Assembly: GCA_028876495.1 (NCBI GenBank)
Contig: JAGWRO010000024.1
Span: 1 to 64,000 of the forward strand
DNA: 64,000 nt
Origin: Bacteroidota bacterium
Lineage (GTDB): Bacteria > Bacteroidota > Bacteroidia > Chitinophagales > Chitinophagaceae
Direction: 5' to 3'
Below are positions 3,352-35,121 of the stretch, piece after piece. Below the pieces are notes generated by a model that worked only from the letters and a program-made list of their open reading frames with translations, had not been told where the DNA came from and ran no database searches. The position numbers were made by a program, and so were the translations under genes. Within the stretch, counting starts at the first letter, position 1, and each line of letters starts with the position of its first letter.

Positions 3352-3385
3352 TGATAACTGTCACCGTATACGCTGACTCACATCA
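3352..3385 (+). promoter_or_regulatory. Tandem Crp/Fnr-like sites TGATAACTGTCA (3352) and TGACTCACATCA (3374)
   Basis: Both perfect TGA-N6-TCA, centres 22 bp apart, upstream of CDS 3436. Confidence 0.6.
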
Positions 3386-3435
3386 TTCTTAAAAAGAAAA
3401 TTTTTAATGAAACTTACAGCTTAATAACCCTCGAA

Positions 3436-4164
3436 TTGCTTTTTAAAAGAAATATCAACAAGCAGGAAAGGACAGGAATTCGAAAAGCGCTTCTTATTTG
3501 CGGCATCCTGGCATCACTGCTGTACATCGCAATGAACGTATTTATGCCCATGTTGTACCCGGGATATCATGTAGCCTCTCAAACGGTGAGTGAGTTGTCT
3601 GCCGTTGGCGCTCCTACAAGAACGTTATGGTTTGAACTTGGCATTTTATACACCCTTCTTGTAGCTGCTTTCGGACTGGGTATCCTGCAGTCGGCAGGGG
3701 AAAACCTGTTATTACGTACCCTGGGCATTTTGATGCTGATCAGCGGAATTATTGGCCTGGCATGGTCGCCGATGCACCAGCGCGAAGTAATAGCAGCAGG
3801 TGGCGAAACTTTTACTGACACGTGGCACATTATTATGAACGCCATTACCCTTTTACTTTTAATGTTAATTATTGGTTTCGGCGCAGCAGGCCTTAAAAAG
3901 GGATTCCGCATCTATTCTATTGCCAGTATGGGCATTTTTATTACGTTCGGCATTTTGACCAGTTTGGAAGCTCCCGGCATCACCACCAACATGGCTACGC
4001 CCATGATTGGCGTGTGGGAGCGCATCAATATCGGAACGTACATGATCTGGATGATCGTGTTGGCGGTACTTTTAATGAAAAGAGAACGTACAGCTTTATT
4101 AGCTACAACAAAAAAGAATACGCAGAAAACGAAAGCAGCTATTGATGAGCAACGGCTAAAATGA
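3436..4164 (+). CDS. DUF998-family integral membrane protein
   Basis: Multiple TM helices; LYPGYHVASQTVSELSAVGAPTR motif; TTG start. Confidence 0.7.
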   Translation: MLFKRNINKQERTGIRKALLICGILASLLYIAMNVFMPMLYPGYHVASQTVSELSAVGAPTRTLWFELGILYTLLVAAFGLGILQSAGENLLLRTLGILMLISGIIGLAWSPMHQREVIAAGGETFTDTWHIIMNAITLLLLMLIIGFGAAGLKKGFRIYSIASMGIFITFGILTSLEAPGITTNMATPMIGVWERINIGTYMIWMIVLAVLLMKRERTALLATTKKNTQKTKAAIDEQRLK

Positions 4165-4227
4165 AAATACAGATTTGTATTTTTTCACTTTTAAATATCA
4201 ATGTAAGTGTATTCAATAAAACAGAAG

Positions 4228-5106
4228 TTAACGGGCTTTTAAGTATCCCAGCAAACCAAGCCAATCGCCAAATCTTTCTATCCATGTATCAGTAGGGATA
4301 TTTTGTTGGTGCATGCCAAAGCCATGCCCTCCTTTTTGATACATATGCAATTCTGCAGGTTTTTTTGCAGCCAGCCACTTTGAATACAGTGCAACACTAT
4401 GCGGAGCCAGTCCTAAATCATCATCTGTAGCAGCAGCAATAAATATCGGTGGTGCATCGCCAGGTACTGTGCCCTGTAATGAGGGTGGCATATAGGCATA
4501 AACAGATCCCACAAAATCAGGACGGTTTTCAGGCGTATAATTAAAAGCGGATGATGCCGCAACAGTGCCCCCGGCAGAGAACCCGATAATACCAATCCGG
4601 TTGGGGTCTACACCATATTCGGCCGCATGGGTGCGCACATATTCGATGGCCTTTCTGCCGTCTGCAATGCTTAAAGGAATAATGGGAGTAACCTTATCAA
4701 CAAAATCGCTTTTTTTCATATTCTCACCCAGTTCTTTACCGGGATTATCTGTTAAACTCTGGCCTAACCTGTACTTCAACAAAAAAACAGTAACGCCTTT
4801 TTGGTTTAGCCATTGCGCTACCTCTGTACCTTCGTGCACTGCTGCTAAAATGTAAAAGCCACCACCGGGGCAAACAATTATAGCCGTTCCGGTAGATTGG
4901 GAAGGGTCTGCAGGATAGACCGTTAACGTTGGATGCGATACATTATAGATGAGCGCATCTTTACTGCCTGCATGATACACTTCTTCGTTATACGTCCAGC
5001 TTTCGGAACCCGGTGCATTACCATTGTACAATTGAATTACTTTTTGCTGGGCCTGTACCCCTAAAGTGAAAACGAGTAAGCAGGCAGTTATTATTCTTTT
5101 GAGCAT
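4228..5106 (-). CDS. Secreted alpha/beta hydrolase (acetyl-xylan-esterase/lipase-like)
   Basis: Signal peptide, VCPGGGFYILA and GFSAGG nucleophile elbow, C-terminal HGFGMH. Confidence 0.85.
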   Translation of the reverse strand: MLKRIITACLLVFTLGVQAQQKVIQLYNGNAPGSESWTYNEEVYHAGSKDALIYNVSHPTLTVYPADPSQSTGTAIIVCPGGGFYILAAVHEGTEVAQWLNQKGVTVFLLKYRLGQSLTDNPGKELGENMKKSDFVDKVTPIIPLSIADGRKAIEYVRTHAAEYGVDPNRIGIIGFSAGGTVAASSAFNYTPENRPDFVGSVYAYMPPSLQGTVPGDAPPIFIAAATDDDLGLAPHSVALYSKWLAAKKPAELHMYQKGGHGFGMHQQNIPTDTWIERFGDWLGLLGYLKAR

Positions 5107-5266
5107 GTGGTGTATTTTTTATTAAAAATAAGTATTTCAATTTTATTTAATTAAATGAAATCCTAAAGGCAGTTCGATAAATCAGCTCACCAGCAAACCC
5201 TCCCTTTAAAAAATACAAATCCGGGTTATTGGTTGGTTTACTACGTTAATCCTCCAGCAATCAAAT

Positions 5267-5331
5267 TGATAACCGTCATTGCTTTTACTAATAATAATCA
5301 TTGCCGAGGGAAGAACAGGTAAATAGCTTTG
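5267..5331 (+). promoter_or_regulatory. Tandem Crp/Fnr-like sites TGATAACCGTCA (5267) and TAATAATAATCA (5289) with -7 box TAGCTTTG (5324-5331)
   Basis: Centres 22 bp apart; proximal centre 33 bp from the -7 centre. Confidence 0.6.
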
Positions 5332-5394
5332 ATACTACAAAAAGGGATGTGGTAAATCAAAATAAATGATAGCAACCTGTTTTTTAAAAAGCGA

Positions 5395-5793
5395 ATGATG
5401 AATACAACCATTGCAGGATATTACGTAGATGAATTAGCACATTGGATGCGCCTGATAGGATTTTACAATCGTGAAATAACTGAGTTTGGGCATAAACTGG
5501 CTGAAGTGATCCAAAGGAATACCATACCTCATATTGCCGAAAAGGTGGAAGCGCAGCAAAGTAGCCTGGATAAAGTGTCGGAAAAATTTGGAACGCTGTA
5601 TACACTCATCGAAAAACAACATGCCGTGCTTAAAAAAGATCATGCGCTGATTGATAATTCGCTGATTGATGAGGATACCAATGAAAGGCAAAATGAATTG
5701 AGGCAACAGATGGAACAGGCAGAAAAATTGTACCTGGAGGTAAAATATGGCTGCTATCATTTTTTATCAGAAACCCTTAAGAAACAAAAATAA
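5395..5793 (+). CDS. Hypothetical helical protein
   Basis: 132 aa, first gene of an apparent co-directional operon. Confidence 0.7.
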   Translation: MMNTTIAGYYVDELAHWMRLIGFYNREITEFGHKLAEVIQRNTIPHIAEKVEAQQSSLDKVSEKFGTLYTLIEKQHAVLKKDHALIDNSLIDEDTNERQNELRQQMEQAEKLYLEVKYGCYHFLSETLKKQK

Positions 5794-5882
5794 CCGGGAA
5801 CCTGTTTATCCATAGAATTTAGAAAGCAGAGGAATTGAGATTATTACATCAATATTTTAGAAATCTATTAAACAACCATGTC

Positions 5883-7037
5883 ATGAAACGAATAAATGAA
5901 AAAAACTTAAAAGAACTGGCAGCAGTTCATGGTTTGCATTGCATATCTGTTTTTATTCCTACGCATATTTCGGGCGATAAAGGTCTCAGGGAAGGGGATG
6001 CTTTATTACTCAAAAATGAATTAAAGGACATAAAAAGGAAATTAGCCGCGAGAGGATTGGCTCAACCCGGGCTTGATGAATGGGTGAAGCCCATACAAAA
6101 CCTGGTAGATGACACTGAATTTTGGAGTCGCCAGGAAGGCGGGCTGGCCTTATTTATTTCAGACAACCTATTCAAAAAATATGAACTGGACATAAACTTT
6201 GAACCCTATAATTATGTTTCAACTGAGTTCTATATTAAGCCTTTATTTTCGGCCCTGGCAACCAATCAAGATTTCTTTCTGCTAACCCTTGAACTGGAAG
6301 AGGTAAGACTACATAAAGGCACTGAAGCCGGTTTGCAGGAGATCGATATTACTGAAATGGTACCAACAAGATTAGAAGAGGTAGTGGGTTCGGATTATGA
6401 GCAAAAATCCTCGCAGTTCAAAAGCCAACAGAAGGGGCATGGGTATTCTGTGTATTACGGTCATGGAGAAGGGAAAGATGAAAATAAAACAGAGATCAAC
6501 AAGTACCTGAGAGAAGTAGATAAAAGCATAACAAAATTGCTGAAGAATGAAAAGGTGCCGCTTGTGGTGGCAGGAGTTGACTACCTGGTTTCTGCCTACC
6601 GTGAAGTTAACTCGCTCGATAACTTATACGAAAGGCATATACCGGGTAATCCCAAACTTCTGGGTTTAGAGTCTTTACACAAACGGGCGCTGGATTTGCT
6701 GCAACCTTATTTTAATAAAACAAAAAAAGAAAAAACGGAATCCTACAGGCAATTCCAGGGTACACCCAAAACGGCTAACAACATTGATGATATTGTGCCC
6801 GAAGCCATGCATGGCAAAATAGACACTTTATTCATGTTGAAGAACCAGGATGTTTTTGGAATGGTTGATGAAGTGAGCGACCAGGTTGAATACAAAGAAG
6901 GAGCTGAATTAGCAGAAGTATCACTCTTTAACCTGGCCGCTAAAGAAGCATTCCTGCATGGTGGAAACGTGTATTTGGTGGAACAGGAAGAAATGCCTGA
7001 CGGGTTTTCAATCATCAACGCCTTATATCGCTATTAA
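5883..7037 (+). CDS. Archaeo-eukaryotic release-factor-like (BaeRF) protein
   Basis: CISVFIPTH start, C-terminal GGNVYLVEQEEMPDGFSIINALYRY typical of BaeRF proteins; start reassigned from 5835 to the ATG at 5883. Confidence 0.65.
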   Translation: MKRINEKNLKELAAVHGLHCISVFIPTHISGDKGLREGDALLLKNELKDIKRKLAARGLAQPGLDEWVKPIQNLVDDTEFWSRQEGGLALFISDNLFKKYELDINFEPYNYVSTEFYIKPLFSALATNQDFFLLTLELEEVRLHKGTEAGLQEIDITEMVPTRLEEVVGSDYEQKSSQFKSQQKGHGYSVYYGHGEGKDENKTEINKYLREVDKSITKLLKNEKVPLVVAGVDYLVSAYREVNSLDNLYERHIPGNPKLLGLESLHKRALDLLQPYFNKTKKEKTESYRQFQGTPKTANNIDDIVPEAMHGKIDTLFMLKNQDVFGMVDEVSDQVEYKEGAELAEVSLFNLAAKEAFLHGGNVYLVEQEEMPDGFSIINALYRY

Positions 7038-7118
7038 GCTGATTTTAGTAAATGAAGGATAAAAAGAGCATGAAAAGAAAGGATTTATAAATATTTTAAA
7101 CCAATAAAATAGTGAATT

Positions 7119-11259: not shown

Positions 11260-12231
11260 TTAATCATCGAACAACTCTGTAACTGATCCTCCTTCCTGCA
11301 TACGTTTTATAACTTCTGCAAAAAGCGGTGCGGCATCCAATACAATTACTCTTTTTTTTATCCCCGTGTTCTCCAATCTGAAAGGAGGAATCGTATTGGT
11401 AACTATTATTTGATCCAACGGACTTTGCAATAAAGCTTCATCCGGATTTCCGGTAAAAAGACCATGTGTGGCCAAAGCCAATACCTTTTTTGCACCCAAT
11501 TTTATACAAGCTGCAGCAGCCCTTGCAATGGTGCCACCGGTACTTATTAAATCGTCAATAATAATTACGGTTTTATCTTTTACTTCGCCGGTAACTCTTT
11601 CTCCGGACACCACACCACTGCTGCGGTATTTTTCCATAAACACCACCGGCAATTCTTTATTCAATTGTTTCGCCAGCGTACGTTGAAATTGATCTGCTCT
11701 CTTAATACCTCCGAAATCCGGCGACATAATTACGGCAGCATCCTCTTTAACTACCGGTAACAGGTAAGCGGCAAATAGTTTTCTTGCTTCGAGATTTTCT
11801 GACGGTATCCTGAATGCGTTTTGGTAAGCCTGTAGATTATGAACATCCATTGTTACCACGCTATCAATTCCTGATGCTTCCATTAAGCGGGCTATATACC
11901 GGGTTGTCACCGGGTCACGCGGTTTCGTTTTGCGGTCTTTGCGGGCATAACACAAGTAAGGCATTATAGCAGTTACCTTTTTGGCCGATGCATCTTTAAG
12001 CGCTGCAGTAAAGAACAGCAGGCGGCACAGTTTATCATTTGCACTTTGAGTAGTATCCGAATACAGAGAATGAATTACAAATACATCCTCGTTGCGCACA
12101 TTTTCGAGCGGCCTGGCTTTATGTTCGCCATCCTCAAACTCTCTTTCTTCATGCGCACTTAAAGGCATATTAAGGGCTGCGGCAACTAATCCGCCAAAAC
12201 TTCGGGTACCATTTAATGCAAAGACTTTCAT
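11260..12231 (-). CDS. prs: Ribose-phosphate pyrophosphokinase-like (divergent)
   Basis: MPYLCYARKDRKTKPRDPVTTRYIARLMEASG, IIIDDLISTGGT; probable start MKVFALNG at 12231. Confidence 0.85.
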   Translation of the reverse strand: MKVFALNGTRSFGGLVAAALNMPLSAHEEREFEDGEHKARPLENVRNEDVFVIHSLYSDTTQSANDKLCRLLFFTAALKDASAKKVTAIMPYLCYARKDRKTKPRDPVTTRYIARLMEASGIDSVVTMDVHNLQAYQNAFRIPSENLEARKLFAAYLLPVVKEDAAVIMSPDFGGIKRADQFQRTLAKQLNKELPVVFMEKYRSSGVVSGERVTGEVKDKTVIIIDDLISTGGTIARAAAACIKLGAKKVLALATHGLFTGNPDEALLQSPLDQIIVTNTIPPFRLENTGIKKRVIVLDAAPLFAEVIKRMQEGGSVTELFDD

Positions 12232-12277
12232 TTGGAAAACAGGAATTTTTAGGTTGAGATTATAGGTTGCCAAAGTT

Positions 12278-12342
12278 CAAAGGAACTAATAAATGAAGGC
12301 GCTTTCAATGATCTTAATTATAGCGATGATTGATTGTAATCA
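12278..12342 (-). promoter_or_regulatory. prs promoter: -7 TTCCTTTG (12278-12285), sites 12309-12320 (TGATCTTAATTA) and 12331-12342 (TGATTGTAATCA)
   Basis: 22 bp site spacing, 33 bp to the -7 centre, same geometry as other promoters here. Confidence 0.5.
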
Positions 12343-12365: not shown

Positions 12366-12431
12366 TGCTATCTGTCAGCAAATCGCCTGACCGTTATCAT
12401 TTGATGTGGGCACTTACCGGATTTATATTTG
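12366..12431 (+). promoter_or_regulatory. sRNA promoter: sites TGCTATCTGTCA (12366) and TGACCGTTATCA (12388), TTTG (12400) N20 TATATTTG (12424)
   Basis: Exact Bacteroidota TTTG-N20-TAnnTTTG preceded by tandem TGA-N6-TCA sites. Confidence 0.6.
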
Positions 12432-12437
12432 CATCAA

Positions 12438-12546
12438 TCGGGTTACAGATTTATTCTTGACCCGGATGGATTAAAGTAGATAATAGTATTTGCAAAAAGA
12501 TATGAAACTACTGTATCCCGGGATTGGTTAACACCAGTCCCTTTTT
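12438..12546 (+). ncRNA. Candidate intergenic sRNA (~110 nt)
   Basis: Consensus promoter upstream, 5' stem TCGGGT/ACCCGG-like (12439-12464), 3' terminator GGGATTGG-ttaaca-CCAGTCCC-TTTTT (12520-12546), no ORF. Confidence 0.5.
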
Positions 12547-12578
12547 ATTGAACGCGGTAATGAGATTTCTGAACTGTT

Positions 12579-13586
12579 TCAAAAAGCCTTTAAGTAATCA
12601 TCCATTAAGTCGAGGTATTTTGCGGCTGCTATCAATGCCTTTGTTTTATCTTTTTTGCTACCTGTAGATTTCGCCCTCAGGCTGTTAACTTTTGCGCGTA
12701 CGTTTGCCCGGTAGCTTTTATAATAAATAAAAAGCCTTTTGTCTTCGCTTGTTTTTATTGCCGGAAACAACAGGTTATAGTCCTCAATAAATAAATCTGA
12801 CAAATCTTTTCTGTCAAAGGCATCCAAATCCATACAAAGAAAAGCCACCTCATTCAATACATCGATTTGCCGGAAATCATCGTTGAATTCTATACAATCA
12901 AAAGGCACGGGAGCAGGCAATAAAAAAATGTTTCTTGAATGTAAATCGCCGTGGCAGTCCCTGTAAAAGCCGTCGCGAAGCCTTGCTGCCAGCAAGTCTT
13001 TGTTTTTTTCTATGAATGAATCTGATACTTCTATTGCATGATCAATCATATCTCCGTATTTGTCGCCCAATTGATCAGTCAAAAATTCTTTTTCTTGTTC
13101 CAGGTCGTTAAAATCCTGTTTTATTTTCAGGAAATCTTTTTTGGTAATTATTTCTGTTTGCCTGTGAAAATCCGCTATTTTCTCAGCCAGGTTTTTTATA
13201 TCAGATTTTGTTACCCGGTCCTTTATCAGCAGTTGATCCATTTGCTTTTCCCTGTCCAGCTTTTTCATTCTTACTGCATAATCTGCCAGGATTCCTTTCT
13301 TCCCTCCCATAACAAAATTTCCATGGTTTTCATATATGGGTTGCACATCAAGATAAATGCCTTCAGCCAGTCTTTTATTTAGTTCAATTTCTCTTTCACA
13401 AAAATGCTTTCGCATTTTAAGCGTCGAAAAATCAAGAAAGGAATAATGAACCGGTTTTTTGATTTTGTACACGAATTGATGGCACACAATTACCCACGAT
13501 ATATGTGTTTCAATTAATTCGCGCTTCCCGGAATCACCGGGAAATTCGCCATCTGAAACCAATTTATTGATCTCTTCTTTTGTCAT
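12579..13586 (-). CDS. Aminoglycoside-phosphotransferase-like kinase (COG2187-like)
   Basis: CHGDLHSRNIFLL, ETHISWVIVCHQFVYKIKKPV. Confidence 0.75.
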   Translation of the reverse strand: MTKEEINKLVSDGEFPGDSGKRELIETHISWVIVCHQFVYKIKKPVHYSFLDFSTLKMRKHFCEREIELNKRLAEGIYLDVQPIYENHGNFVMGGKKGILADYAVRMKKLDREKQMDQLLIKDRVTKSDIKNLAEKIADFHRQTEIITKKDFLKIKQDFNDLEQEKEFLTDQLGDKYGDMIDHAIEVSDSFIEKNKDLLAARLRDGFYRDCHGDLHSRNIFLLPAPVPFDCIEFNDDFRQIDVLNEVAFLCMDLDAFDRKDLSDLFIEDYNLLFPAIKTSEDKRLFIYYKSYRANVRAKVNSLRAKSTGSKKDKTKALIAAAKYLDLMDDYLKAF

Positions 13587-14077
13587 TCTTTACTTTTCAA
13601 ATAATCAACAGCCTTCTCAAGCATTTCTTTTATATTACTATTGGTTGACTGCAATACCAGGTGAATTTTCTTCAAAGGCTCATTTTGACTGCTGATAATT
13701 TTATAAACCTTAAAATCAGCTTCGCTGTAGCGCCTCTTTCTTTTTAATCTTTCCCTGGTGATACTTTCTGCTGCGGTAATTTCGATGAAATAAACACCTC
13801 CCCTTTTTTCCATTTCTTTTATAAATGGTTGCCTCGTTTCTTTTTTATGAAAGGTTGCATCCAAAATCACGTTCCTGTTTTGATCCACCGCTTCTTTCAT
13901 CCTTTGTAGCATCGCCTGGTAAACCGATTCCTTCTCCTCTTTAGAATAGGTTCTCTTTTTAAACATCTCTTTTCTTATCCGATCGCTGTTGATATAATCT
14001 GCCTGGATTTTTTTTGCCAGCCTTGAAGCAAAATAGCTTTTGCCGGAACCGGGTAAACCAAAAACTATTACTACCAT
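13583..14077 (-). CDS. P-loop kinase (AAA_33/COG0645-like)
   Basis: VVIVFGLPGSGKSYFASRLA; 4 nt overlap with the downstream APH-like gene. Confidence 0.8.
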   Translation of the reverse strand: MVVIVFGLPGSGKSYFASRLAKKIQADYINSDRIRKEMFKKRTYSKEEKESVYQAMLQRMKEAVDQNRNVILDATFHKKETRQPFIKEMEKRGGVYFIEITAAESITRERLKRKRRYSEADFKVYKIISSQNEPLKKIHLVLQSTNSNIKEMLEKAVDYLKSKE

Positions 14078-14132: not shown

Positions 14133-14909
14133 TCAAAAAGCGATAAAAAAAGGATTCCTCAGATCGGGCTTATTATAAGAAAGTTCGGATGCTAAGTCCG
14201 TTTGGTAAACACCCCGGTTAGAAGCGTTTAAAATTGCATGAGCCGCGGCAGTATCCCATTCCATGGTAGTTCCAAATCTTGGATAAACTTCAGCTTTGTT
14301 TTCAAGAAGCAGCATAAATTTTAATGAACTGCCGGCACTCATTATTTCAACCTTTTTAAACTGTGCTGAAAAAGTTTGCGTTTCTTTGGAAGGGTGCGAC
14401 CTTGAAGCAACCAACCTTATATTCTCCTTCGCCAGCAGTTCATCCAATGTTTTTCTCTTTTTTAATGGAAAGAATTGAATGGTTTCCGCGTGTTCTTTCT
14501 TAAAAATCCCATACCCTGCAGCGCCGGAATATAAAGACCCGGAACATGGCCTGTAAATAATGCCGGCCACAGGAACATTCATTTTCATCAATGCGATATT
14601 TACGGTGAACTCTCCATTTTTATGGATAAACTCTTTAGTGCCATCGAGAGGATCAATGAGCCAGAAATATTCCCATAACTTTCTTTCCTTAAAATCAACG
14701 TTTATGCCTTCTTCAGACAGAATGGGCAAACCGGTTTTACTTAAAGATTGGGTAACGATTTCATGAGCCGATTTATCCGCTCTTGTTATTGGGGTGGCGT
14801 TGTCTTTCATTTCTGTTGCAAATTCATCAGAATCATATATTTCCATTATTGATCTTCCTGCATCAATTGCTGCATTTTCTGCTATTTGAATGAGTTGCTT
14901 AAGGTCCAT
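14133..14909 (-). CDS. cysQ: 3'(2'),5'-bisphosphate nucleotidase CysQ-like
   Basis: LSEEG...WLIDPLDGTKEFIHKNGEFTVNIAL...WDTAAAHAIL. Confidence 0.85.
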   Translation of the reverse strand: MDLKQLIQIAENAAIDAGRSIMEIYDSDEFATEMKDNATPITRADKSAHEIVTQSLSKTGLPILSEEGINVDFKERKLWEYFWLIDPLDGTKEFIHKNGEFTVNIALMKMNVPVAGIIYRPCSGSLYSGAAGYGIFKKEHAETIQFFPLKKRKTLDELLAKENIRLVASRSHPSKETQTFSAQFKKVEIMSAGSSLKFMLLLENKAEVYPRFGTTMEWDTAAAHAILNASNRGVYQTDLASELSYNKPDLRNPFFIAF

Positions 14910-14928: not shown

Positions 14929-14993
14929 TAAAGTTAAAGGAGGAATAATTGAAGATGAATGACGGTGGTCAATAGAATTAATGATTAATAAAG
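14929..14993 (-). promoter_or_regulatory. cysQ promoter: -7 TAACTTTA (14929-14936), site TGACGGTGGTCA (14960-14971), degenerate site 14982-14993
   Basis: 33 bp from site centre to -7 centre; half-site 22 bp further upstream. Confidence 0.5.
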
Positions 14994-15063: not shown

Positions 15064-15861
15064 ATGGCAAGCCAAATTCCGACCATCAGAACGGTAAACG
15101 TGATAAGATATATAACGCCTTTGCGCGAAGGAGGTTCGCTGCCTGCCATTGCGGAAGCGGATGATGACTTTATGTATGTTATCAAGTTTCGCGGTGCAGG
15201 ACAGGGAAGAAAAGCGTTGGTAGCAGAACTGATAGGCGCTGAGATGGCAAGATCGCTTGGGCTGAAAGTGCCGGAAATTGTTTTTGCCAACCTTGATGAA
15301 GCATTTGGCCGCACCGAACCTGACGAAGAAATACAGGATTTACTCAAAGCAAGTGTCGGGCTTAACCTTGGTGTTCATTATCTTTCGCGCTCGATCACTT
15401 ACGATCCGGCAGTTTCGCCTGTTGATGCTAAACTGGCTTCGCAAATTGTTTGGCTTGATTGCCTGCTTACCAATGTTGACCGCACTTCGCGCAATACCAA
15501 TATGCTTATTTGGTATAAAGAATTGTGGCTGATCGATTTTGGTGCGTCACTCTATTTTCATCACTCATGGAACAACTGGAAAGAGCAGGCGGAAAAACCT
15601 TTTTTGTTCGTGAAAGATCATGTATTGCTGCCACAGGCGGCGGAGTTGGATACAGTAAACAAAGAATTTAAAAATATTCTTACCCAAGAATTGATAGAAA
15701 ATATTGTGTCTGCAATTCCCGACGAATGGTTGTCCGGGGAAACCGCTTTTCGGTCAGTGGAAGAACACCGGCGGGCCTATGTAGATTTTTTAGTAACGAG
15801 AATCGCTCATTCAGAAATTTTTGTAAAAGAAGCAAAGCATGCAAGGGAATCAATTATTTGA
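15064..15861 (+). CDS. HipA-family kinase-like protein
   Basis: FMYVIKFRGAGQGRKALVAELIGAEMARSLGL, LLTNVDRTSRNTNMLIW, LIDFGASL. Confidence 0.75.
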   Translation: MASQIPTIRTVNVIRYITPLREGGSLPAIAEADDDFMYVIKFRGAGQGRKALVAELIGAEMARSLGLKVPEIVFANLDEAFGRTEPDEEIQDLLKASVGLNLGVHYLSRSITYDPAVSPVDAKLASQIVWLDCLLTNVDRTSRNTNMLIWYKELWLIDFGASLYFHHSWNNWKEQAEKPFLFVKDHVLLPQAAELDTVNKEFKNILTQELIENIVSAIPDEWLSGETAFRSVEEHRRAYVDFLVTRIAHSEIFVKEAKHARESII

Positions 15862-16222
15862 GTACGCAGTTATCAGGATTGTACCCCGCGTTGAACGCGA
15901 GGAGTTCCTGAATGTGGGCGTGATCCTGTATTGCCCGAAACAAAAGTTTTTGAAGGCCAAATACCAGTTAAACAAAAAAAGAATCGCTCATTTCTGTGAT
16001 CAAATTGACATCGACGAACTGGAAGAACATTTAAAAACCTTTGAGCGGATAAGCCTTGGCGGAAAACAGGCAGGCCCGATCGGGCAACTTCCGATCGCCG
16101 AAAGATTCCGCTGGTTAACAGCAACAAGAAGTACGATTGTACAAACCTCAAAAGTGCACCCTGGCTTTTGTTCTGATCCGGAAGAAACGCTGGAAAAACT
16201 TTTTGAGCAGTTGGTGTTATAA
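15839..16222 (+). CDS. DUF3037 protein
   Basis: FEYAVIRIVPRVEREEFLNVGVILYCPKQKFL; overlaps the HipA-like gene by 23 nt. Confidence 0.75.
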   Translation: MQGNQLFEYAVIRIVPRVEREEFLNVGVILYCPKQKFLKAKYQLNKKRIAHFCDQIDIDELEEHLKTFERISLGGKQAGPIGQLPIAERFRWLTATRSTIVQTSKVHPGFCSDPEETLEKLFEQLVL

Positions 16223-25123: not shown

Positions 25124-26320
25124 TCAATCCAATAAATGATAGCATTGAGTAGCGATTTCCAACTCTTCATTCGTAGGAATTACCAGGATCTTTACGCGGG
25201 AGCCTTCCTGGTTTATTTCATGAAACCCTTTTAAACGGCGGTTATTTTTTTCTTCGTCTAATTGTATGCCGAGGTATTCCAGGTTGGTAGAACAGAGTTT
25301 GCGCATCAGGCGGTCGTTTTCCCCCACTCCGCCGGTAAATACGATCGCGTCCAAACCATTAAGTACAGCAGTAAAGGTGCCTATATATTTTCGGATACGA
25401 TAGGCGTACATGTGGTAAGCGAGCAAAGCCTGTTTGTCGCCGTTTTCAATTTTAGCAATAATGTCGCGCATATCGTTAAGCCCTGTCAGTCCTACCATCC
25501 CGCTGTTGTTGTTCAGCATTTCTTTTACTTTTTCCACTTCGTAGCCCAGTTGGTTTACAAGGTAAAAAATCACCGACTGATCAATATCGCCGGCGCGGGT
25601 TCCCATGATCAATCCGTTCATCGGACCAAAGCCCATGCTGGTATCAACAGACTTGCCGCCCTTAACGGCCGTCATGCTGCAACCATTTCCCAAATGAATC
25701 GTAATGATCTTTGAGTCTGTTTTTTGCAGGTACTCAACTGCTTTTCCGCTTACAAATTTGTGGCTGGTACCGTGGAAGCCGTATACACGTATCCCGTATT
25801 CATAATAAAATTTAGAAGGGATGGCATAACGGTACGCTTCTTCAGGAATAGTTTGATGAAACGCTGTATCAAAAACAGCTACCTGCTTTGCATGGGTAAA
25901 TAATTTTTCAGCTACTTCAATCCCTAAATAATTAGCAGGATTGTGCAGCGGCGCCAGCGGAAATAATTTTTTGATCTTGTCTTTAACTTCCTTTGTAATA
26001 ATGGTAGTTGCTGCAAAACTTTCGCCACCATGCACTACCCGATGGCCTACCACGTGTATCTCTGACGGATCTTTAATAACGCCGATTTCTTTATCAGTTA
26101 AAAGTGCGGCCACTTCCTTTAATCCCACAGCATGATCAGTAATTTTCATTACCTGCCTTTTTACCTGCTCCTTTCCCTCTTTAAAAGTTTTATGAATAAT
26201 GGCGGCATCTTCTTCACCAATTCTTTCCACAATACCACTACAAACTACCGCTTCGGAAGGCATTTCGATAAGCTGGTATTTTATAGAACTGCTTCCTGAG
26301 TTGATAACAAAAATATTCAT
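25124..26320 (-). CDS. ackA: Acetate kinase
   Basis: FVINSGSSSIKYQLI, VGHRVVHGGE, FDTAFHQTIPEEAYRYAIP, FHGTSHK, GDIDQSV. Confidence 0.97.
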   Translation of the reverse strand: MNIFVINSGSSSIKYQLIEMPSEAVVCSGIVERIGEEDAAIIHKTFKEGKEQVKRQVMKITDHAVGLKEVAALLTDKEIGVIKDPSEIHVVGHRVVHGGESFAATTIITKEVKDKIKKLFPLAPLHNPANYLGIEVAEKLFTHAKQVAVFDTAFHQTIPEEAYRYAIPSKFYYEYGIRVYGFHGTSHKFVSGKAVEYLQKTDSKIITIHLGNGCSMTAVKGGKSVDTSMGFGPMNGLIMGTRAGDIDQSVIFYLVNQLGYEVEKVKEMLNNNSGMVGLTGLNDMRDIIAKIENGDKQALLAYHMYAYRIRKYIGTFTAVLNGLDAIVFTGGVGENDRLMRKLCSTNLEYLGIQLDEEKNNRRLKGFHEINQEGSRVKILVIPTNEELEIATQCYHLLD

Positions 26321-26343: not shown

Positions 26344-28434
26344 TTATGATTGAGCCTGTATGGCGGTGATTACTACTGTATTAAAAATATCGTCTACGGT
26401 ACACCCCCTGCTGAGGTCGTTCACCGGTTTATTTAATCCCTGCAACATAGGGCCGATAGCCACTGCTCCGGTTTCACGCTGAACCGCTTTATAAGTATTA
26501 TTTCCGGTATTGAGATCAGGGAAGATCAACACACTCGCCTGCCCTGCCACTTTTGAATTGGGCAATTTTTGTTTGCCTACTGCAGGATCAACCGCTGCGT
26601 CATATTGAATAGGACCTTCTACCGGAAGGTCGGGCCTGCGCGCTTTTACCAATTCTGTCGCTCTCCTTACTTTTTCCACTTCTTCTCCCTGGCCTGAAGA
26701 ACCGGATGAATAAGACAGCATCGCAATTTTAGGCTCAATGCCAAACATGATGCTGCTTTCTGCAGAAGAGATCGCGATATCAGCCAATTGTTCTGAAGTA
26801 GGTTTCGGTATCACGGCACAATCGCCAAATACGATCACCCGATCTTCGAGACACATAAAAAATACGGATGAAACGGTAGAAACGCCCGGTTTGGTTTTTA
26901 TAAACTGCAACGCCGGCCGTATGGTATGTTGGGTAGTGTTGATAGAACCTGAAACCATTCCATCTGCGTCGCCCTTGTACACCATCATCGTTCCGAAATA
27001 AGCACCATCCTTCATAAAGTCGGCGGCCATGTCCATGTTCACATTTTTTTCTTTTCTCAATTCATATAATGTGGCAGTATAATCGGGCAACAGTGGTGAG
27101 TCCACCGGATTGATAATGGTTACATTCTTCCGGTCAAGTTCGATATTTAATCGCTGCAGAGATGCTTCTATTTCTTCTTTTTTACCAAGAATCGTTAATC
27201 GCACTACCTCTTGCTTCAGCAATTTTGCCGCCGCTTCAAGGATGCGGTCGTCACTGCCTTCAGGTAATACAATATGTTTTTTATGAAGTTTTGCTCTTTT
27301 CACCATCTGGTATTGGAACATCCTTGGCGTAATGCCTTCCGGTTGAGAGGTGACGATCTTATCTATCAAAGAAAGCGTGTCAGTATTTTTTTCAAAAGCG
27401 TTTGTTGCCAAATCAATCTTCAAAGTATTTTCGGGGTAGATCCTTGATTTAACTGCTGCCACTTTATTTACCGTTTCAAAAGTGCCTGTCTGTACCTGCA
27501 CTATCGGCACCACCGTTTCCAAACCTTCTACCAGTTTAATAATAGGTTCATCCGGTGCCAGTCCGCCGGAAAGAACCAGGCCTGCCACTTTCGGATAATT
27601 TTTAGAAAGATTAGCCTGAATCATTGCAATGATAATATCGCCCCTGTCGCCGGGAGTTACGATCAATGTATTTTCCTCCAGGTGGGTAAGGCAATTGCGT
27701 AACTGCATCGCTCCCACAATAAAATGATCTACCGGGTTGGATAAATAATTTTGTCCGAATAATATTTTCCCATCAACCCCTTCTACAATTTCTTTCATGG
27801 TGGGGCTGCTTAGTTCACTGGCATACGGGATTATAGAAGTGAGCAAATAAGGTGGTAACCGCTGGGCAAATAACACATGCAACGGTTCCACATTCAACTG
27901 ATCAACTTTGTTGGCTATTACTGCCAGTAAAGGCACTTCCTTATCCTTTAATATCTGCATGGTAGAGAGCACATTCCGCGTTACATCATCAGGCGTATAA
28001 CCATCTCCTTTGGCTACCAATATGAGTGGAATGGACAAATTTTTGGCGATCTCTACATTCGATGAAAATTCAAATGACGCACCTTCGCCTTCGAAATCCA
28101 TCCCGTCTACCAACACAAAATCGTGCGTATCTTCCAGCTTTTTGTATTTACTGATAATGGTGTCTATTACATAAGCATTGTTGTCTTCACTTCGGAATTT
28201 CAACAATTCAGCATAAGTAAAAGCATAGCAATCATTATAAGTAACATCCAAACCAAAGTGGTCGATCATGGTTTCGATATTGATATCTTTATTGTTACCA
28301 CCATTTTCACGTATCACCGGTTTGAAATAGGCGATCTTCCTGATCTTTCCGAGTAAAATGTTCATTAATCCGAGGGTAATAACCGACTTCCCGCTATTCG
28401 ATTCAGAGGAGGCTACATATATAGCTTTTGACAT
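26344..28434 (-). CDS. pta: Phosphate acetyltransferase (long form with P-loop and DRTGG domains)
   Basis: YVASSESNSGKSVITLGLM; C-terminal PILQGLNKPVNDLSRGCTVDDI-type end (PMLQGLNKPVNDLSRGCTVDDIFNTVVITAIQAQ). Confidence 0.96.
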   Translation of the reverse strand: MSKAIYVASSESNSGKSVITLGLMNILLGKIRKIAYFKPVIRENGGNNKDINIETMIDHFGLDVTYNDCYAFTYAELLKFRSEDNNAYVIDTIISKYKKLEDTHDFVLVDGMDFEGEGASFEFSSNVEIAKNLSIPLILVAKGDGYTPDDVTRNVLSTMQILKDKEVPLLAVIANKVDQLNVEPLHVLFAQRLPPYLLTSIIPYASELSSPTMKEIVEGVDGKILFGQNYLSNPVDHFIVGAMQLRNCLTHLEENTLIVTPGDRGDIIIAMIQANLSKNYPKVAGLVLSGGLAPDEPIIKLVEGLETVVPIVQVQTGTFETVNKVAAVKSRIYPENTLKIDLATNAFEKNTDTLSLIDKIVTSQPEGITPRMFQYQMVKRAKLHKKHIVLPEGSDDRILEAAAKLLKQEVVRLTILGKKEEIEASLQRLNIELDRKNVTIINPVDSPLLPDYTATLYELRKEKNVNMDMAADFMKDGAYFGTMMVYKGDADGMVSGSINTTQHTIRPALQFIKTKPGVSTVSSVFFMCLEDRVIVFGDCAVIPKPTSEQLADIAISSAESSIMFGIEPKIAMLSYSSGSSGQGEEVEKVRRATELVKARRPDLPVEGPIQYDAAVDPAVGKQKLPNSKVAGQASVLIFPDLNTGNNTYKAVQRETGAVAIGPMLQGLNKPVNDLSRGCTVDDIFNTVVITAIQAQS

Positions 28435-28465: not shown

Positions 28466-28530
28466 CAAAAGTCGGTGAATTTTCCCTAAAGCTCTATGAG
28501 GAAAATCATGGATAAGATTGTTATTAATTA
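28466..28530 (-). promoter_or_regulatory. pta promoter: -7 GACTTTTG (28466-28473), site TGAGGAAAATCA (28497-28508), degenerate site 28519-28530
   Basis: 33 bp from site centre to -7 centre. Confidence 0.45.
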
Positions 28531-28672: not shown

Positions 28673-29917
28673 TTACAGCTTAATAAATTCTACCCTGCGA
28701 TTTAAAGCTTTGTTGGATGGAGAGTCATTGGCTGCAACCGGCTGTGCTTCGCCTTTGCCATCTGTTTCCATCCTTGAAGGATCAATCTTAAAAGTAGTGA
28801 CTAATTCATTTTTTACAGAGGCAGAACGACGTTTGGATAACTCAAGATTTGCATCATCGGCACCATCAGCATCCGTATGCCCCACGATCCGGATCTTTAC
28901 ATCAGGATTCTCATTTAAAATGGCAGCAATTTCTTTGAGTGATCCATAGGATTCCGGTTTTACCGCATCTTTATTCACGTCAAAATAAATTCCATAACTC
29001 ACGATCTTTCCTTCAGTAAGCAACTTACTACGCATGTCAGGAGCCCCGACGGCAATTCGTACGTTACTTACCATGGCGGCTCCGTTTTCAAAACGAATCC
29101 TATCCATCTTAACCGAACTTACCGGAAATGCTTTGGGCAGATCAAATATTTTATTTTCGTTTTGATACACTCTTACCCTCGACTTTTGTATCCAGATTGC
29201 TATATGATAGAGTTGATTTTCTTTTTGATAATAGGATTTTTCTTCGTTGGTACCACTCAATCCAAGGCCTTCGCCTTCTTTGCCATTGATATAAGTTCGA
29301 TACCCCGGCCTGCCAAAGTATTCACATCCAAAATACAAACCTGCTTTTCCCGGCACCGATCCATGATCAAATGCCTTCGCGTTAATGCTCTGCATTAAAC
29401 GGAAACCATAGCCGGCCATTCCGCCTTCGGTTCCTTTAATGGGAATAATGTCAAACTCAATCGTATAATTTTCAGGCAGGTTGAGTAATTGATCCGTCCA
29501 GATGGCATCCCGCGAAACAAATTTTAACCACCGGCCCGGAAATAAATTGGTGGTAACTACTTCTCCTGAACCATTGGTATTCCAGGCAGCAGGAAAATCA
29601 CCAACGTTACCCTGGCTGAAATCATCAAAAAACACCACTTTATCACCAGGAACAAAATCAAATTTTGAATATGTCTGGAGAGCAACCTGGTTATTGGAAG
29701 GTTTATCCGCACCTGGTTTATTAGCCGCATTTGCATTTTCATCTTTCACCTCCGGCTTCTCTTTATTTTCCGATGTTTTAACAGGCGGCTGTTCTTTTTT
29801 ATTAATAATTTCATTTGCTTTTTTTTGAAGTAATTTTTTAGGATTTAACTGGGCGGTGACATTGCCTGCTGATACTAATATTAAGGCAGCAAAAGCCCAG
29901 TTTAATATAGTTTTCAT
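28673..29917 (-). CDS. OmpA-family outer membrane protein, paralogue of 16553..17902
   Basis: Same architecture and GIYFDVNKDAVKPESYGSLKEIA...NRRVEFIKL. Confidence 0.85.
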   Translation of the reverse strand: MKTILNWAFAALILVSAGNVTAQLNPKKLLQKKANEIINKKEQPPVKTSENKEKPEVKDENANAANKPGADKPSNNQVALQTYSKFDFVPGDKVVFFDDFSQGNVGDFPAAWNTNGSGEVVTTNLFPGRWLKFVSRDAIWTDQLLNLPENYTIEFDIIPIKGTEGGMAGYGFRLMQSINAKAFDHGSVPGKAGLYFGCEYFGRPGYRTYINGKEGEGLGLSGTNEEKSYYQKENQLYHIAIWIQKSRVRVYQNENKIFDLPKAFPVSSVKMDRIRFENGAAMVSNVRIAVGAPDMRSKLLTEGKIVSYGIYFDVNKDAVKPESYGSLKEIAAILNENPDVKIRIVGHTDADGADDANLELSKRRSASVKNELVTTFKIDPSRMETDGKGEAQPVAANDSPSNKALNRRVEFIKL

Positions 29918-29934: not shown

Positions 29935-30000
29935 TAAAGTTAGTTGCCCTGCGTAAATTTTATGGGTGATTGCGGTCACAGTAATCACTGATTGTTATCA
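29935..30000 (-). promoter_or_regulatory. Tandem perfect sites TGATTGCGGTCA (29967) and TGATTGTTATCA (29989), -7 TAACTTTA (29935-29942)
   Basis: 22 bp spacing, 34 bp to the -7 centre; divergent cytochrome c gene on the other side. Confidence 0.65.
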
Positions 30001-30064: not shown

Positions 30065-30589
30065 ATGAAGAAGATACTGGTTTCTGTTATCCTTACTTTG
30101 GCTGGCCTTATCGGGCTCTTTATCATTTATATTTATTCAGGGTCTTATAATGTAAGTCAGTTGGCGCATCATAATGCCATCACCCAATGGGCCATCAACA
30201 CTACAAAGCACCGTTCTATTAATGCACATGATGCAGACATCAAAGTGCCACCGTTAAATGATACGTCCATGATTATAATGGGCTTTAAACATTACAATGA
30301 AATGTGCGTAACCTGCCATGGCGGCCCCGGAATAGAACCTGATGAATTAGCTAAAGGGCTTTATCCCGCACCTCCGAAGTTTTACAAATCTGATGATATG
30401 CCTGACACCACCGAGGCATTCTGGATTACTAAAAACGGAATTAAATTTACCAGTATGCCCGCTTTCGGGCCTACCCATTCCGATCAGAAAATATGGGCGA
30501 TCACTGATTTTTTACTGAACAAACTCAACAAAATGACACCGGAAGAATACCAGCAATGGAAAGTGAAATATGCTGAAAACGATGATTAA
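30065..30589 (+). CDS. Single-heme c-type cytochrome
   Basis: N-terminal TM, CVTCHGGPGI, distal Met in FTSMPAFGPTH. Confidence 0.85.
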   Translation: MKKILVSVILTLAGLIGLFIIYIYSGSYNVSQLAHHNAITQWAINTTKHRSINAHDADIKVPPLNDTSMIIMGFKHYNEMCVTCHGGPGIEPDELAKGLYPAPPKFYKSDDMPDTTEAFWITKNGIKFTSMPAFGPTHSDQKIWAITDFLLNKLNKMTPEEYQQWKVKYAENDD

Positions 30590-30747: not shown

Positions 30748-31686
30748 TTGGCGTATATTTATTTCATGAAAATAAAAACAACTGCCGTTTCTGCCTTTGC
30801 CTTATTGGTTTGTATTTTTCAAACAACCACCGCCCAGATAAGCCCACGCGTACAGCACATTTTCCCGGAAGGAACCATTACTTATGGCAACATTCCCTAT
30901 GCCGGAGATACGGTTTTGAAACATTTGCTTGACATTTATCTTCCGCCAAATCATACAAAAAACACACCGCTGATCGTGTGGATACATGGCGGCGCGTGGA
31001 TGCTGAATGACAAATATGCCGATATGAGCTATATGCAAAAAACCATAAAGTCATTCATCGACAGCGGTTATGCATTGGCGTCTATAGATTACCGTTATAG
31101 CACCACTGCCATCTTTCCGGCACAGATAAAGGATTGTAATGAAGCAATAGAATTTCTATATCAACATGCAGCAAAATATCACTTAGATAAAAACCGTATT
31201 ACTGTAATCGGCTTTTCTGCCGGTGGCCATTTGGCTTCGCTTATGGCGCTTTCCAATAACAACGATGTGAAAGAATTTTATCCACCCGGTAAAAAGATCA
31301 GTTTTAAAATAAGATGCGCTTTTGATTTTTACGGCCCTTCAGATTTGATCATGCAAACCACCAACCCTGATACCTCTGTAGTAAACGACCGCGACCCTGT
31401 GGCACTTCTGCTGGGCACCTTACCTATTAACCGCCCCGATCTTGCAAAGATCGCCAGCCCTGTAACTTACGTTGATAAAAACGATCCTCCGTTCCTTATT
31501 GTGCAGGGAGAAAAAGACCAGTCGGTGCCCAATACCGAATCAAAAATCTTAAGTTCATGGCTAAGGCTTGCGGGCGTACCCAATAAACTCATCATTGTTC
31601 CCGGCGCGCCACATTATGGAAAAATGTTTGACGCAGATTATATCAGGGCAGACATTTTTAAGTATTTGGATAAGTATATGAAGTGA
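30748..31686 (+). CDS. Secreted alpha/beta hydrolase (BD-FAE/carboxylesterase-like)
   Basis: VWIHGGAWML, IGFSAGGHLASL; likely start MKIKTTAVSAF. Confidence 0.85.
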   Translation: MAYIYFMKIKTTAVSAFALLVCIFQTTTAQISPRVQHIFPEGTITYGNIPYAGDTVLKHLLDIYLPPNHTKNTPLIVWIHGGAWMLNDKYADMSYMQKTIKSFIDSGYALASIDYRYSTTAIFPAQIKDCNEAIEFLYQHAAKYHLDKNRITVIGFSAGGHLASLMALSNNNDVKEFYPPGKKISFKIRCAFDFYGPSDLIMQTTNPDTSVVNDRDPVALLLGTLPINRPDLAKIASPVTYVDKNDPPFLIVQGEKDQSVPNTESKILSSWLRLAGVPNKLIIVPGAPHYGKMFDADYIRADIFKYLDKYMK

Positions 31687-31838
31687 GAATTGAAAGAAAT
31701 TTATAGGTTTATAAGGTGCAGGATATTGTATCCCTGATAACAGATGACGATAGTAAACCTACTTTTATTTGCTATTTTTATTTAGGGTAAACGCTTTGTT
31801 CAAGTGCCTCCAATTTTCGATAAAAAAAGAAAATTATT

Positions 31839-34610
31839 TTAATCACCCTTCACTACTTTAATACTTTGCCTTTGATGTGATCCTGCAATAATTGTAAGCA
31901 GGTAAGTTCCTTTTGATAATCTGCTGATTTTGCTTATCTGTACGATGTTGGTTCCGGCTGATAGTTGCCTATCCTCTTTGTATAATTGTCTTCCGCCCGG
32001 GTCGGTTATTATAAAAGTCGCCTTAACAGCAATAAGTGATTCAACCGTTACATTCAACTTATCCTGAAACGGATTTGGATTGACCGCAACAAATTTTCCA
32101 TAAAGATCCGTTCCGATTTTTATTATTGTGCTGTATTTAAAATCGCCATCGTTGTCCACACTTTTTAAACGATAAAAATACAAAGGCGATATCGTAACAG
32201 CTAATTGATCATTATAAATATAGGTGCCATTTCCTACAGCTTTAACCTGAGAGATTCCGGTAAAATTTTGTCCATCAATACTACGCTGCAATTCATAATA
32301 ATTAAGATTAAGTTCATTTTCAACTTTCCAGGTTAACTGGTTGCTATTTCCTTTTCTTTTACCATTAAAACTTATGAGTGTTACAGGTACAGGGCCGGAT
32401 TCTGCCGTCTCAATAAATGAAGTTAAAAAAGGATTAGCACCATTGGTAATATCAAAATCCTGCAGCTTTGTATAGGTGGATGTAACAGGATCAAAAGAAA
32501 AAACAACACCGGCATCGATGCTTCCTCCATACCCTGTCATGCCATATAGTTTTCCATCGCTTGCCTGCGCGAGGCTGCCATAAGGATACCCGCCATTGGT
32601 ATTATCAAAATCCTTGAGTTTGGTATAGGTAGAAGAAGGAACAAAGGAAAAAATAACACCCGCATCAATGCTTCCTCCTGAAACAGTCATTCCATATAGC
32701 TTTCCATCTTTTGCAGAGACAAGACTTCCTGCAGGATTACTACCAGTGGCATTATCAAAATCCCTGAGTTTTGCAAAAGTGTAAGCGGAAGGATCAAAGG
32801 AAAAAATAACACCGGCATCATTGATTCCTCCATAAGCAGTCAAACCATATATTTTTCCATCGTTTTTTTGTACCAGGCTGCCATAAGGATTACTTCCATT
32901 GGTCCCGTTAAAATCCATAAACTTGGTATAAGTGGTAGTGGAAGGATCAAAGGAAAAAATAACACCATAATCGCTGCTTCCGCCAAATACAGTCATGCCA
33001 TATAGCTTTCCATTGCTTGCCTCCAGTAGACTTCCTGCAGGATTCGCACCGTTGGCAATATCAAAATCCTTAAGTTTTGTATAGATAGATGTAGCGGGAT
33101 CAAAAGAAAAAATAACACCCGCATCGCTGCTACCTCCAAAGGCTGTCATGCCATATAGCTTTCCATTACTTGCCTGCATCAGGCTTCCATAAGGATTAGC
33201 TCCATTGGTATAATCAAATTCCTTCAGTTTTGTATAAGTGAAAGTGGAAGGATTAAATGAAAAAATAACGCCGGCATCGCTGCTCCCGCCCTCATTCGCC
33301 ATCCCATAAAGCTTTCCATCTATTGCTTTAAGAAGGCCGCCGTAAATATTTCTTCCATCTTCGTTTGTACCAAAATCCCTCACTTTTGAATAAGTGGAAG
33401 TAGAAGGCTCCAGAAAAAAAATAACACCATCTCCGATATTGCCTCCGTAAGTTGTCATGCCATATAATTTTCCGTTACTTGCCTGCACCAGGCTACCATA
33501 AGGATTTCCTCCATCAGTACTACCATCAAAATTCTTTAACGTTGTATAGGTTGTTGCCAAAGGATCATAAGAAAATACAACACCTTCAGAGTTGGTTCCT
33601 CCATAAACTGTCAGGCCATAAAGTTTTCCATCACTTGCCTGTATAAAGCTGCCATGAGGATTGCTGCCAATGGAAAAGTCAAAATCTTTTAGTTTTGTAT
33701 AAATAGAAGTAGAAGGATCAAAGGAAAATATAACACCTGCATCACTGCTTCCTCCATAACCCGTCATGCCATATAGTTTTCCATTTCCTGCCAGCAAAAA
33801 ACTTCCATAAGGATAACTGCCATTTGTATTATCAAAATCCTTCAACTTTGTATAAGTAGAGGTAGTAGGGTCAAAAGAAAAAATAACACCATAACCGCTG
33901 ATTCCTCCCTGGTAGGTCATCCCGTATAGCTTTCCATTGCCTGCCTGTACCAGGCTGCCATAGGGGCAACCACCATTGGCATTATCAAAATCCTTCAGCT
34001 TTGTATAAGTGGATGTAGAAGGGTCAAAAGAAAAAATAACACCATAACCGTTGTTTCCTCCATATGCTGCCATTCCATATAACTTTCCATTGCTAGCCTG
34101 CACCAGGCCACCATAAGGGCTACCACCAATGGTATTATCAAAATCTTTCAACTTTGTATATATGGAAGTAGAAGGATCAAAAGAAAAAATAACACCATCA
34201 CCGCTGCTTCCTCCGGAAACCGTCATTCCATAAAGCTTTCCATCGCTTGCCTGCATCAAGCTACCATAAGGGTAACCGCCATTGTCATAATCAAAATCCC
34301 TGAGCTTGATGTACGTGGAAGTCGAAGGATCATAAGAAAAAATAACACCGGCATCGCTGCTTCCCCCATAAACTGTCATGGCATATAGCTTTCCATTTTT
34401 TGCCTGGATAAAATTTACCTGGTTAGGGTTCATAGCATCAAGGCTTTCGAAAGAACGAACAACGGTTAAATTATTGGTAGCAGGTGTAAATTGATTAATG
34501 GTACCTCCTCCACCAATTCCTCCATAAGTTGTGGTACCATATAAGGTTTGCGCCTTTGTATAAAACATACCGGTTAAAAGGTAAATGATACTTAATAAAA
34601 ACTTTTTCAT
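31839..34610 (-). CDS. T9SS-secreted GloVer (TIGR03803-like) tandem repeat protein
   Basis: About 13-14 repeats of GKLYGMTxYGGssdaGVIFSFDPSTsTYTKLkDFD; C-terminal sorting-like domain; start at MKKFLLSIIY. Confidence 0.88.
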   Translation of the reverse strand: MKKFLLSIIYLLTGMFYTKAQTLYGTTTYGGIGGGGTINQFTPATNNLTVVRSFESLDAMNPNQVNFIQAKNGKLYAMTVYGGSSDAGVIFSYDPSTSTYIKLRDFDYDNGGYPYGSLMQASDGKLYGMTVSGGSSGDGVIFSFDPSTSIYTKLKDFDNTIGGSPYGGLVQASNGKLYGMAAYGGNNGYGVIFSFDPSTSTYTKLKDFDNANGGCPYGSLVQAGNGKLYGMTYQGGISGYGVIFSFDPTTSTYTKLKDFDNTNGSYPYGSFLLAGNGKLYGMTGYGGSSDAGVIFSFDPSTSIYTKLKDFDFSIGSNPHGSFIQASDGKLYGLTVYGGTNSEGVVFSYDPLATTYTTLKNFDGSTDGGNPYGSLVQASNGKLYGMTTYGGNIGDGVIFFLEPSTSTYSKVRDFGTNEDGRNIYGGLLKAIDGKLYGMANEGGSSDAGVIFSFNPSTFTYTKLKEFDYTNGANPYGSLMQASNGKLYGMTAFGGSSDAGVIFSFDPATSIYTKLKDFDIANGANPAGSLLEASNGKLYGMTVFGGSSDYGVIFSFDPSTTTYTKFMDFNGTNGSNPYGSLVQKNDGKIYGLTAYGGINDAGVIFSFDPSAYTFAKLRDFDNATGSNPAGSLVSAKDGKLYGMTVSGGSIDAGVIFSFVPSSTYTKLKDFDNTNGGYPYGSLAQASDGKLYGMTGYGGSIDAGVVFSFDPVTSTYTKLQDFDITNGANPFLTSFIETAESGPVPVTLISFNGKRKGNSNQLTWKVENELNLNYYELQRSIDGQNFTGISQVKAVGNGTYIYNDQLAVTISPLYFYRLKSVDNDGDFKYSTIIKIGTDLYGKFVAVNPNPFQDKLNVTVESLIAVKATFIITDPGGRQLYKEDRQLSAGTNIVQISKISRLSKGTYLLTIIAGSHQRQSIKVVKGD

Positions 34611-34629
34611 ATAAATAAATTTAGATTCA

Positions 34630-35046
34630 TTAGTGAGATTCAATTTTTAATTCATTTGCTACTTGCGGAGGCATTGTATTTTGCCAGTATCCCGTGTTTT
34701 TGTATTCGCGTATGATCCATTCTGCAATTTTATAGGCATCCTCTTTTTGGGGCACCCCTCCGGGTGAAAAGGCCAATGGATTACGTGGCTGATGCACCAA
34801 TCGTTTACCATCTTTCAATATGTCGAAGCCATAACCTGAAATACGGTTTGATGCTGGCAACGCCGGTATGAGCTTTATAACATATCCCTCGTATTCCTGC
34901 ATATTTTTCGTTGCATTAACAGACCCGGTTCTCTGTATAGTCAGCGGATCATGTTTTTGAGCAAATAGAGTAAGGGCGGCTATTTGCAGGAGTATTACAA
35001 AAAATAATTTTTTCATAAAAAACATTTTGAAAATTATTGTAATCAA
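34630..35046 (-). CDS. DUF4907-like protein
   Basis: YGFDILKDGKRLVHQPRNPLAFSPGGVPQKEDAYKIAEWII. Confidence 0.65.
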   Translation of the reverse strand: MITIIFKMFFMKKLFFVILLQIAALTLFAQKHDPLTIQRTGSVNATKNMQEYEGYVIKLIPALPASNRISGYGFDILKDGKRLVHQPRNPLAFSPGGVPQKEDAYKIAEWIIREYKNTGYWQNTMPPQVANELKIESH

Positions 35047-35056
35047 TTTGAGAAAT

Positions 35057-35121
35057 CAAAGCTACTTATGGCTGCCTGCGCTGTTAATGACGATTGTCAG
35101 TAGATATAATGATTCCGGTTG
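35057..35121 (-). promoter_or_regulatory. -7 TAGCTTTG (35057-35064), site TGACGATTGTCA (35088-35099), degenerate site TGATTCCGGTTG (35110-35121)
   Basis: 33 bp to the -7 centre, 22 bp between sites. Confidence 0.55.

Follow-up and report, generated by a model that had tools for sequence, protein, structure and literature searches.

The closest described relatives of the regulon considered here are the rhizobial FixL–FixJ–FixK and hFixL–FxkR–FixK cascades, with anaerobox half-sites of the form TTGAT-N4-ATCAA (PMC7888657). Further points of comparison are the FNR/Anr regulons of Proteobacteria, the class II and class III tandem-site CRP promoters of E. coli, and the enterobacterial small RNA FnrS. 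In Flavobacterium psychrophilum, the -7 box has been mapped at -12 to -5, and oxygen limitation strongly induces the cbb3 oxidase (PMC9723704).

The system described below, as deduced from sequence, would share with the rhizobial cascades (PMC7888657) a FixL-resembling PAS kinase, a receiver phosphorelay, a Crp/Fnr-type activator and cbb3 oxidase targets, and its half-sites (TGAY-N4-RTCA) are anaerobox-like. By contrast, the receiver and the Crp/Fnr module form one protein here, and the sites come in fixed 22-bp pairs followed by the Bacteroidota TAnnTTTG box. The two-protein arrangement in which FixJ, as the response regulator, induces a fixK gene was not found, both parts being fused; the fixK transcription step would thus be missing, and the system is FixLJ–FixK-like, not FixLJ–FixK. 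With the FNR/Anr regulons it shares Crp/Fnr half-sites, a predicted -41.5 class II position, and hemN, Usp and fermentation-type targets, but its regulator has a receiver domain and no N-terminal cysteines, and a second site at a fixed -63.5 is the rule; FNR-like cysteines occur, as in FNR, in REC-less regulators of other genomes. The proposed arrangement of a dimer at -41.5 and another upstream on the same DNA face recalls the E. coli tandem-site CRP promoters, from which it differs in having one upstream distance (22 bp) throughout the class and no sign of cAMP control. We found no description of this regulon or of the receiver-Crp regulator in the open-access literature searched, subscription papers and preprints lying outside the search.

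Paired sites in the window and across Bacteroidia

The window, the whole 64,000-nucleotide stretch analysed, is part of contig C9 of a 4.70-Mb genome in 99 contigs, whose best-matching named records place the host in or near Chitinophagaceae. The results on the sites and their conservation, on spacing and box distance, on target content, and on co-occurrence and gene linkage with the regulator and kinase come from computation. The first-pass annotation had described eight pairs of TGA-N6-TCA sites with centres 22 bp apart, and all eight were found where it placed them. A 66-bp model (site-N10-site-N23-box), trained on 159 promoters from other genomes only, matched the window at exactly these eight places with scores of 17–31; the reversed window gave 0 matches, and the chance expectation in the window was 0.03–0.07 (0.03 at threshold 16). 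The features were as follows.

3352..3385, + strand: tandem site, both members perfect, before the DUF998 gene 3436-4164; model score 22.3 on + and 17.5 on -; -7 box poor in both orientations
5267..5300, + strand: tandem site upstream of an operon comprising 5395-5793 (small coiled-coil-like protein) and the baeRF, Zn ribbon, glucokinase, CapA-like and phosphoribosyltransferase genes; model score 31.4
5324..5331, + strand: -7 box TAGCTTTG, starting 23 bp past the proximal site
12309..12342, - strand: tandem site before the PRPP synthetase gene 11260-12273 (-); model score 26.4
12278..12285, - strand: -7 box TTCCTTTG of the PRPP synthetase promoter
12366..12399, + strand: tandem site of the predicted small RNA promoter; model score 29.0
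12424..12431, + strand: -7 box TATATTTG of the small RNA, 24 bp past the proximal site
12436..12548, + strand: predicted low-oxygen small RNA, start predicted from the box; terminator 12520-12541, then T5
14960..14993, - strand: tandem site with degenerate distal member, weakest of the eight, before the inositol-phosphatase/cysQ-like gene 14133-14909 and the AAA kinase gene 13583-14077; model score 17.1
14929..14936, - strand: -7 box TAACTTTA of the cysQ-like promoter
28497..28530, - strand: tandem site before pta (26344-28434) and ackA (25124-26320); model score 22.6
28466..28473, - strand: -7 box GACTTTTG of the pta-ackA promoter
29967..30000, - strand: tandem site, both members perfect, before the OmpA-family gene 28673-29917; model score 30.0
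29935..29942, - strand: -7 box TAACTTTA of the OmpA-family promoter, 24 bp past the proximal site
35088..35121, - strand: tandem site before 34630-35046 (named DUF4907 in the first-pass annotation); model score 24.5
35057..35064, - strand: -7 box TAGCTTTG of the 34630-35046 promoter

The cytochrome c gene at 30065, initially listed as a perhaps additional target of the pair at 29967, was rejected because the box score in its orientation was -14.6. The region of the cysQ-like promoter adjoins genes for a HipA-like kinase (HipA_2) and then a DUF3037 protein (15064-16222).

This genome was covered by a genome-wide pattern search and by sampled stretches (422 kb). Genome-wide, 22-bp pairs with at most one mismatch numbered 54, compared with 3 for the backwards pattern, and pairs with TGAY/RTCA half-sites numbered 38, compared with 0 in the control; nearly all pairs inspected were intergenic, many of them 40–150 bp upstream of a start codon. 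In the 422 kb, the distance from the proximal site to the start of the -7 box was 23 bp for 20 of the 38 sites and 24 bp for 5, against a background of 1–2 per offset. Exact sites lying 12–80 bp apart had a spacing of 22 in 19 of 25 pairs, in stretches largely picked for holding such pairs. Several loci of another sampled set had likewise been chosen in the knowledge that they held sites; the clean set consisted of 78 loci picked solely for encoding a relative of the candidate regulator. These gave 115 pairs at spacing 22 (0 in the reversed sequence), compared with ~1.8 at other spacings; the TAnnTTTG box lay 23 bp downstream of the proximal site in 112 cases. Thus, where a lack of excess or of conservation would have spoken against the pairs, a large excess was obtained both genome-wide and in the clean set, and the sites were conserved in relatives, across families. 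Palindromic TGA-N6-TCA operators upstream of genes, as expected of a Crp/Fnr-type regulon, therefore exceed chance.

If the box occupies -12 to -5, its position in F. psychrophilum (PMC9723704), the fixed 23-bp box distance would place the site centres at -41.5 and -63.5. The box offset of 23 and the spacing of 22 in the wider data are consistent with the class II plus upstream-site Crp/Fnr geometry that had been suggested from the window. A good distal site is absent in about one quarter to one third of promoters with proximal site and box, and the pair may thus not be essential everywhere.

Within the window, counting pairs with up to 3 mismatches in 12 gave 43 against 35.2 expected, which was no significant excess (14 of 100 shuffles were as high); at this tolerance the window by itself proves little, and the count was discarded as a basis. 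The signal resides in pairs with no mismatch or one, and in the constant distance of the -7 box. That the pairs are functionless chance occurrences or repeats, a reading to which this loose count would lend itself, is extremely improbable given the strict spacing, strict box distance, cross-family conservation and near-zero controls, and was rejected on the reversed and shuffled controls.

Targets and a candidate small RNA

In this genome, sites were found before ccoNO, hemN-like, NuoA-like, cytochrome c, Usp, Hsp20, NhaA-like, Kdp-like, pta-ackA and PRPP synthetase genes, part of which were named by eye from sequence without a Pfam search; the pair upstream of ccoNO was perfect. Across genomes, the targets included ccoNO (25), ccoI (14), Hsp20 (11), Usp (10), DoxX (8) and hemerythrin (5), together with the kinase gene described below and two small families without a Pfam match. 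The cbb3 oxidase and hemN, typical of FixK/FNR-type low-oxygen regulons, are thus among the targets, and the low-oxygen gene content first suggested from the window agrees with that predicted in the wider data.

The match to ccoNO in this genome (G000:C26:38419-40533, a 727-aa open frame) contains one TAA, perhaps where the alignment overruns the stop codon. Small coiled-coil-like proteins of 127–150 aa (L026:11499-11918, L154:13471-13854), which have no Pfam match, recur as targets next to the fusion gene described below, and the window protein encoded at 5395-5793 is distantly related to some of these. Another recurrent target family without a Pfam match, of ~130 aa (L048:10640-11032, with 13 relatives), lies beside the fusion gene in many genomes.

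The promoter at 12366 on the + strand has no gene behind it, and its predicted transcript of ~110 nt ends in a strong terminator. The transcript folds far better than shuffled sequences (z -5.0), and no Rfam covariance model matched it up to E = 1. Homologues share GATTAAAGTAGAYAAT, ACTACTGTATC and the terminator, and a covariance model blind to the promoter found two further members (G382, G318). There are six confident members, all in Chitinophagaceae-family genomes, and the distance to the tandem promoter is identical in all six. Weak matches (L192-L196, L203, L204 and L206) were rejected for want of the promoter or the conserved core, and in L190/L205, from the same genus, only the 3' half is kept. 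The small RNA suggested by the first-pass annotation is thus well supported by terminator, strong fold and conserved homologues, and represents a conserved candidate for low-oxygen control without an Rfam family. By analogy only, its predicted Crp/Fnr-type low-oxygen promoter and intrinsic terminator recall FnrS; in sequence the small RNA is unrelated to FnrS, and it is confined so far to those six genomes.

The candidate regulator, its kinase and the signal

The first-pass annotation saw no candidate regulator in the window, and the best candidates indeed sit on other contigs. Ten cNMP_binding proteins are encoded in the genome, two of which, on contigs C86 and C89, are fusions of a receiver, cNMP_binding and HTH_Crp. 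As expected of Crp/Fnr proteins, both of the latter domains and the recognition-helix E and R are present. An N-terminal cysteine cluster was found in 0 of 12 REC-Crp fusions, and no solved structure spanning the receiver and Crp parts was among the best matches. The cAMP-contact residues of CRP were not evident by eye in the fusion; cAMP control is therefore unlikely.

E-value cut-offs defined which genomes have the fusion and which have FNR-like proteins; the fusion was found in 118 of 247 Bacteroidia genomes. Genomes with the fusion held a mean of 7.0 pairs, compared with 1.5 without it (p ~1e-21), a contrast confounded by taxonomy, habitat and genome size; it persisted within families (17 of 21) and in strata with or without other Crp/Fnr relatives. 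At least 10 pairs were held by 28 genomes with the fusion and by 0 without. Forty loci around fusion genes (770 kb) contained 60 spacing-22 pairs, compared with 5 in 379 kb around other Crp genes. The fusion gene lies directly behind a PAS histidine kinase gene in 110 of 118 loci, often near genes for the cbb3 oxidase (ccoINOPGHS), hemN, Usp and Hsp20, and in 20 cases the kinase gene itself stands behind a tandem-site promoter. The REC-cNMP-HTH_Crp fusion, presumably a DNA-binding protein, is the most likely activator in this genome.

FixL senses oxygen through a heme PAS domain in which the roles of the proximal His and the distal Arg are well established. The PAS domain of the C86 kinase matched mainly the heme PAS oxygen sensors FixL and DosP in the PDB, and both the FixL proximal heme His and the distal Arg were aligned; it thus appears to resemble the FixL heme oxygen sensor and may bind heme. 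The heme His is kept in 83 of 107 kinases, and the distal residue in the 107 is mostly Met, Arg, Leu or Ile. The C89 kinase (L032:12026-14086) carries three PAS domains, and the aligned one lacks the FixL heme His; the signals sensed by this genome's two REC-Crp systems may therefore differ.

The regulon might instead respond to nitric oxide, redox state or energy stress, with the PAS domain binding some ligand other than oxygen. The absence of the heme His from the remaining 24 of 107 kinases points in this direction, and Usp, Hsp20, PRPP synthetase and pta-ackA would also suit general energy stress. We consider a signal of this kind improbable, since cbb3 oxidase, ccoI and hemN genes are recurrent neighbours or targets, PAS matches in the PDB are mostly heme oxygen sensors, and the alternative regulators described below carry FNR-like cysteines.

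The wider data support the Crp/Fnr-type activator regulon with low-oxygen gene content proposed from the window, and we think it highly probable that these promoters form a low-oxygen regulon across Bacteroidia, activated by the fusion downstream of a FixL-like PAS kinase. The PAS histidine kinase encoded immediately upstream would phosphorylate the receiver of the fusion. One activator dimer would occupy the proximal TGAY-N4-RTCA palindrome at -41.5, in the class II position beside RNA polymerase, and a second dimer, possibly cooperating with it, would bind just upstream at -63.5, two helical turns away on the same DNA face. A drop in oxygen would then induce the cbb3 oxidase, stress proteins and the small RNA, along with heme synthesis and the metabolism of acetate and PRPP.

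Stand-alone Crp/Fnr proteins and sensor exchange

In fusion-less genomes, 25 loci surrounding genes for stand-alone Crp/Fnr proteins contained 20 spacing-22 pairs, compared with 0.48 at other spacings, with the box at offset 23 for 17 of them; these pairs often adjoin ccoI, ccoNO, ccoG, hemN or Usp. REC-less regulators of other genomes have a C-x2-C motif in 23 of 26 cases, plus further FNR-like cysteines, which by their resemblance to FNR may bind an Fe-S cluster. The recognition helices of fusions and REC-less regulators are nearly identical (GTATExxIRxLSxF). Since REC-less regulators adjoin the same tandem sites, the paired site is independent of the receiver domain, which was rejected as the cause of the tandem arrangement.

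The activator in this genome might accordingly be one of its own stand-alone Crp/Fnr proteins, L019 (with an N-terminal C-X4-C-X2-C-X2-C) or L020, the fusion just sharing or modulating the sites. Besides the FNR-like proteins adjoining tandem sites in fusion-less genomes, this would account for the 8, 23, 37, 38 and 53 sites in genomes with both a close L020 relative and the fusion, and for the correlation of other Crp/Fnr proteins, with their nearly identical recognition helix, with site number: the mean was 11.3 with fusion and FNR-like protein, 5.15 where the fusion occurred alone, 2.8 where the FNR-like protein did, and 0.85 where both were absent. The fusion, however, predicts site number even where such proteins are absent, a single site occurs in the sole fusion-less genome that has an L020 relative, and the loci around close L019/L020 relatives (L086-L090, L096-L100) contain no pairs. 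We regard a stand-alone activator as unlikely here, if the least unlikely of the alternatives; L020, L019 and L016 were ranked below the fusion as main regulator, the search of other genomes covering L019 and L020.

Oxygen inputs of two kinds thus seem to act through a single cis code. On balance we favour a single Bacteroidia code (a TGAY-N4-RTCA pair at -41.5/-63.5, bound by two cooperating dimers) served by either an FNR-like cysteine protein or a FixL-like kinase with a receiver-Crp fusion that would collapse FixL–FixJ–FixK into one phosphotransfer step, the sensor having been exchanged while promoters and targets stayed, and with a new low-oxygen small RNA family among the outputs. With so sharp a promoter code, and with regulator and kinase named, the low-oxygen response of the whole class would become predictable from sequence. 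The system would also offer a clear example from nature of a sensor being exchanged while the regulatory network stayed fixed, as well as a new oxygen-linked small RNA for study.

The L020 gene (G000:C9:168821-169522) lies on the same contig as the window, outside it. Given the 8–53 tandem sites in the five genomes with an L020 relative and the fusion, L020 may join an enlarged regulon.
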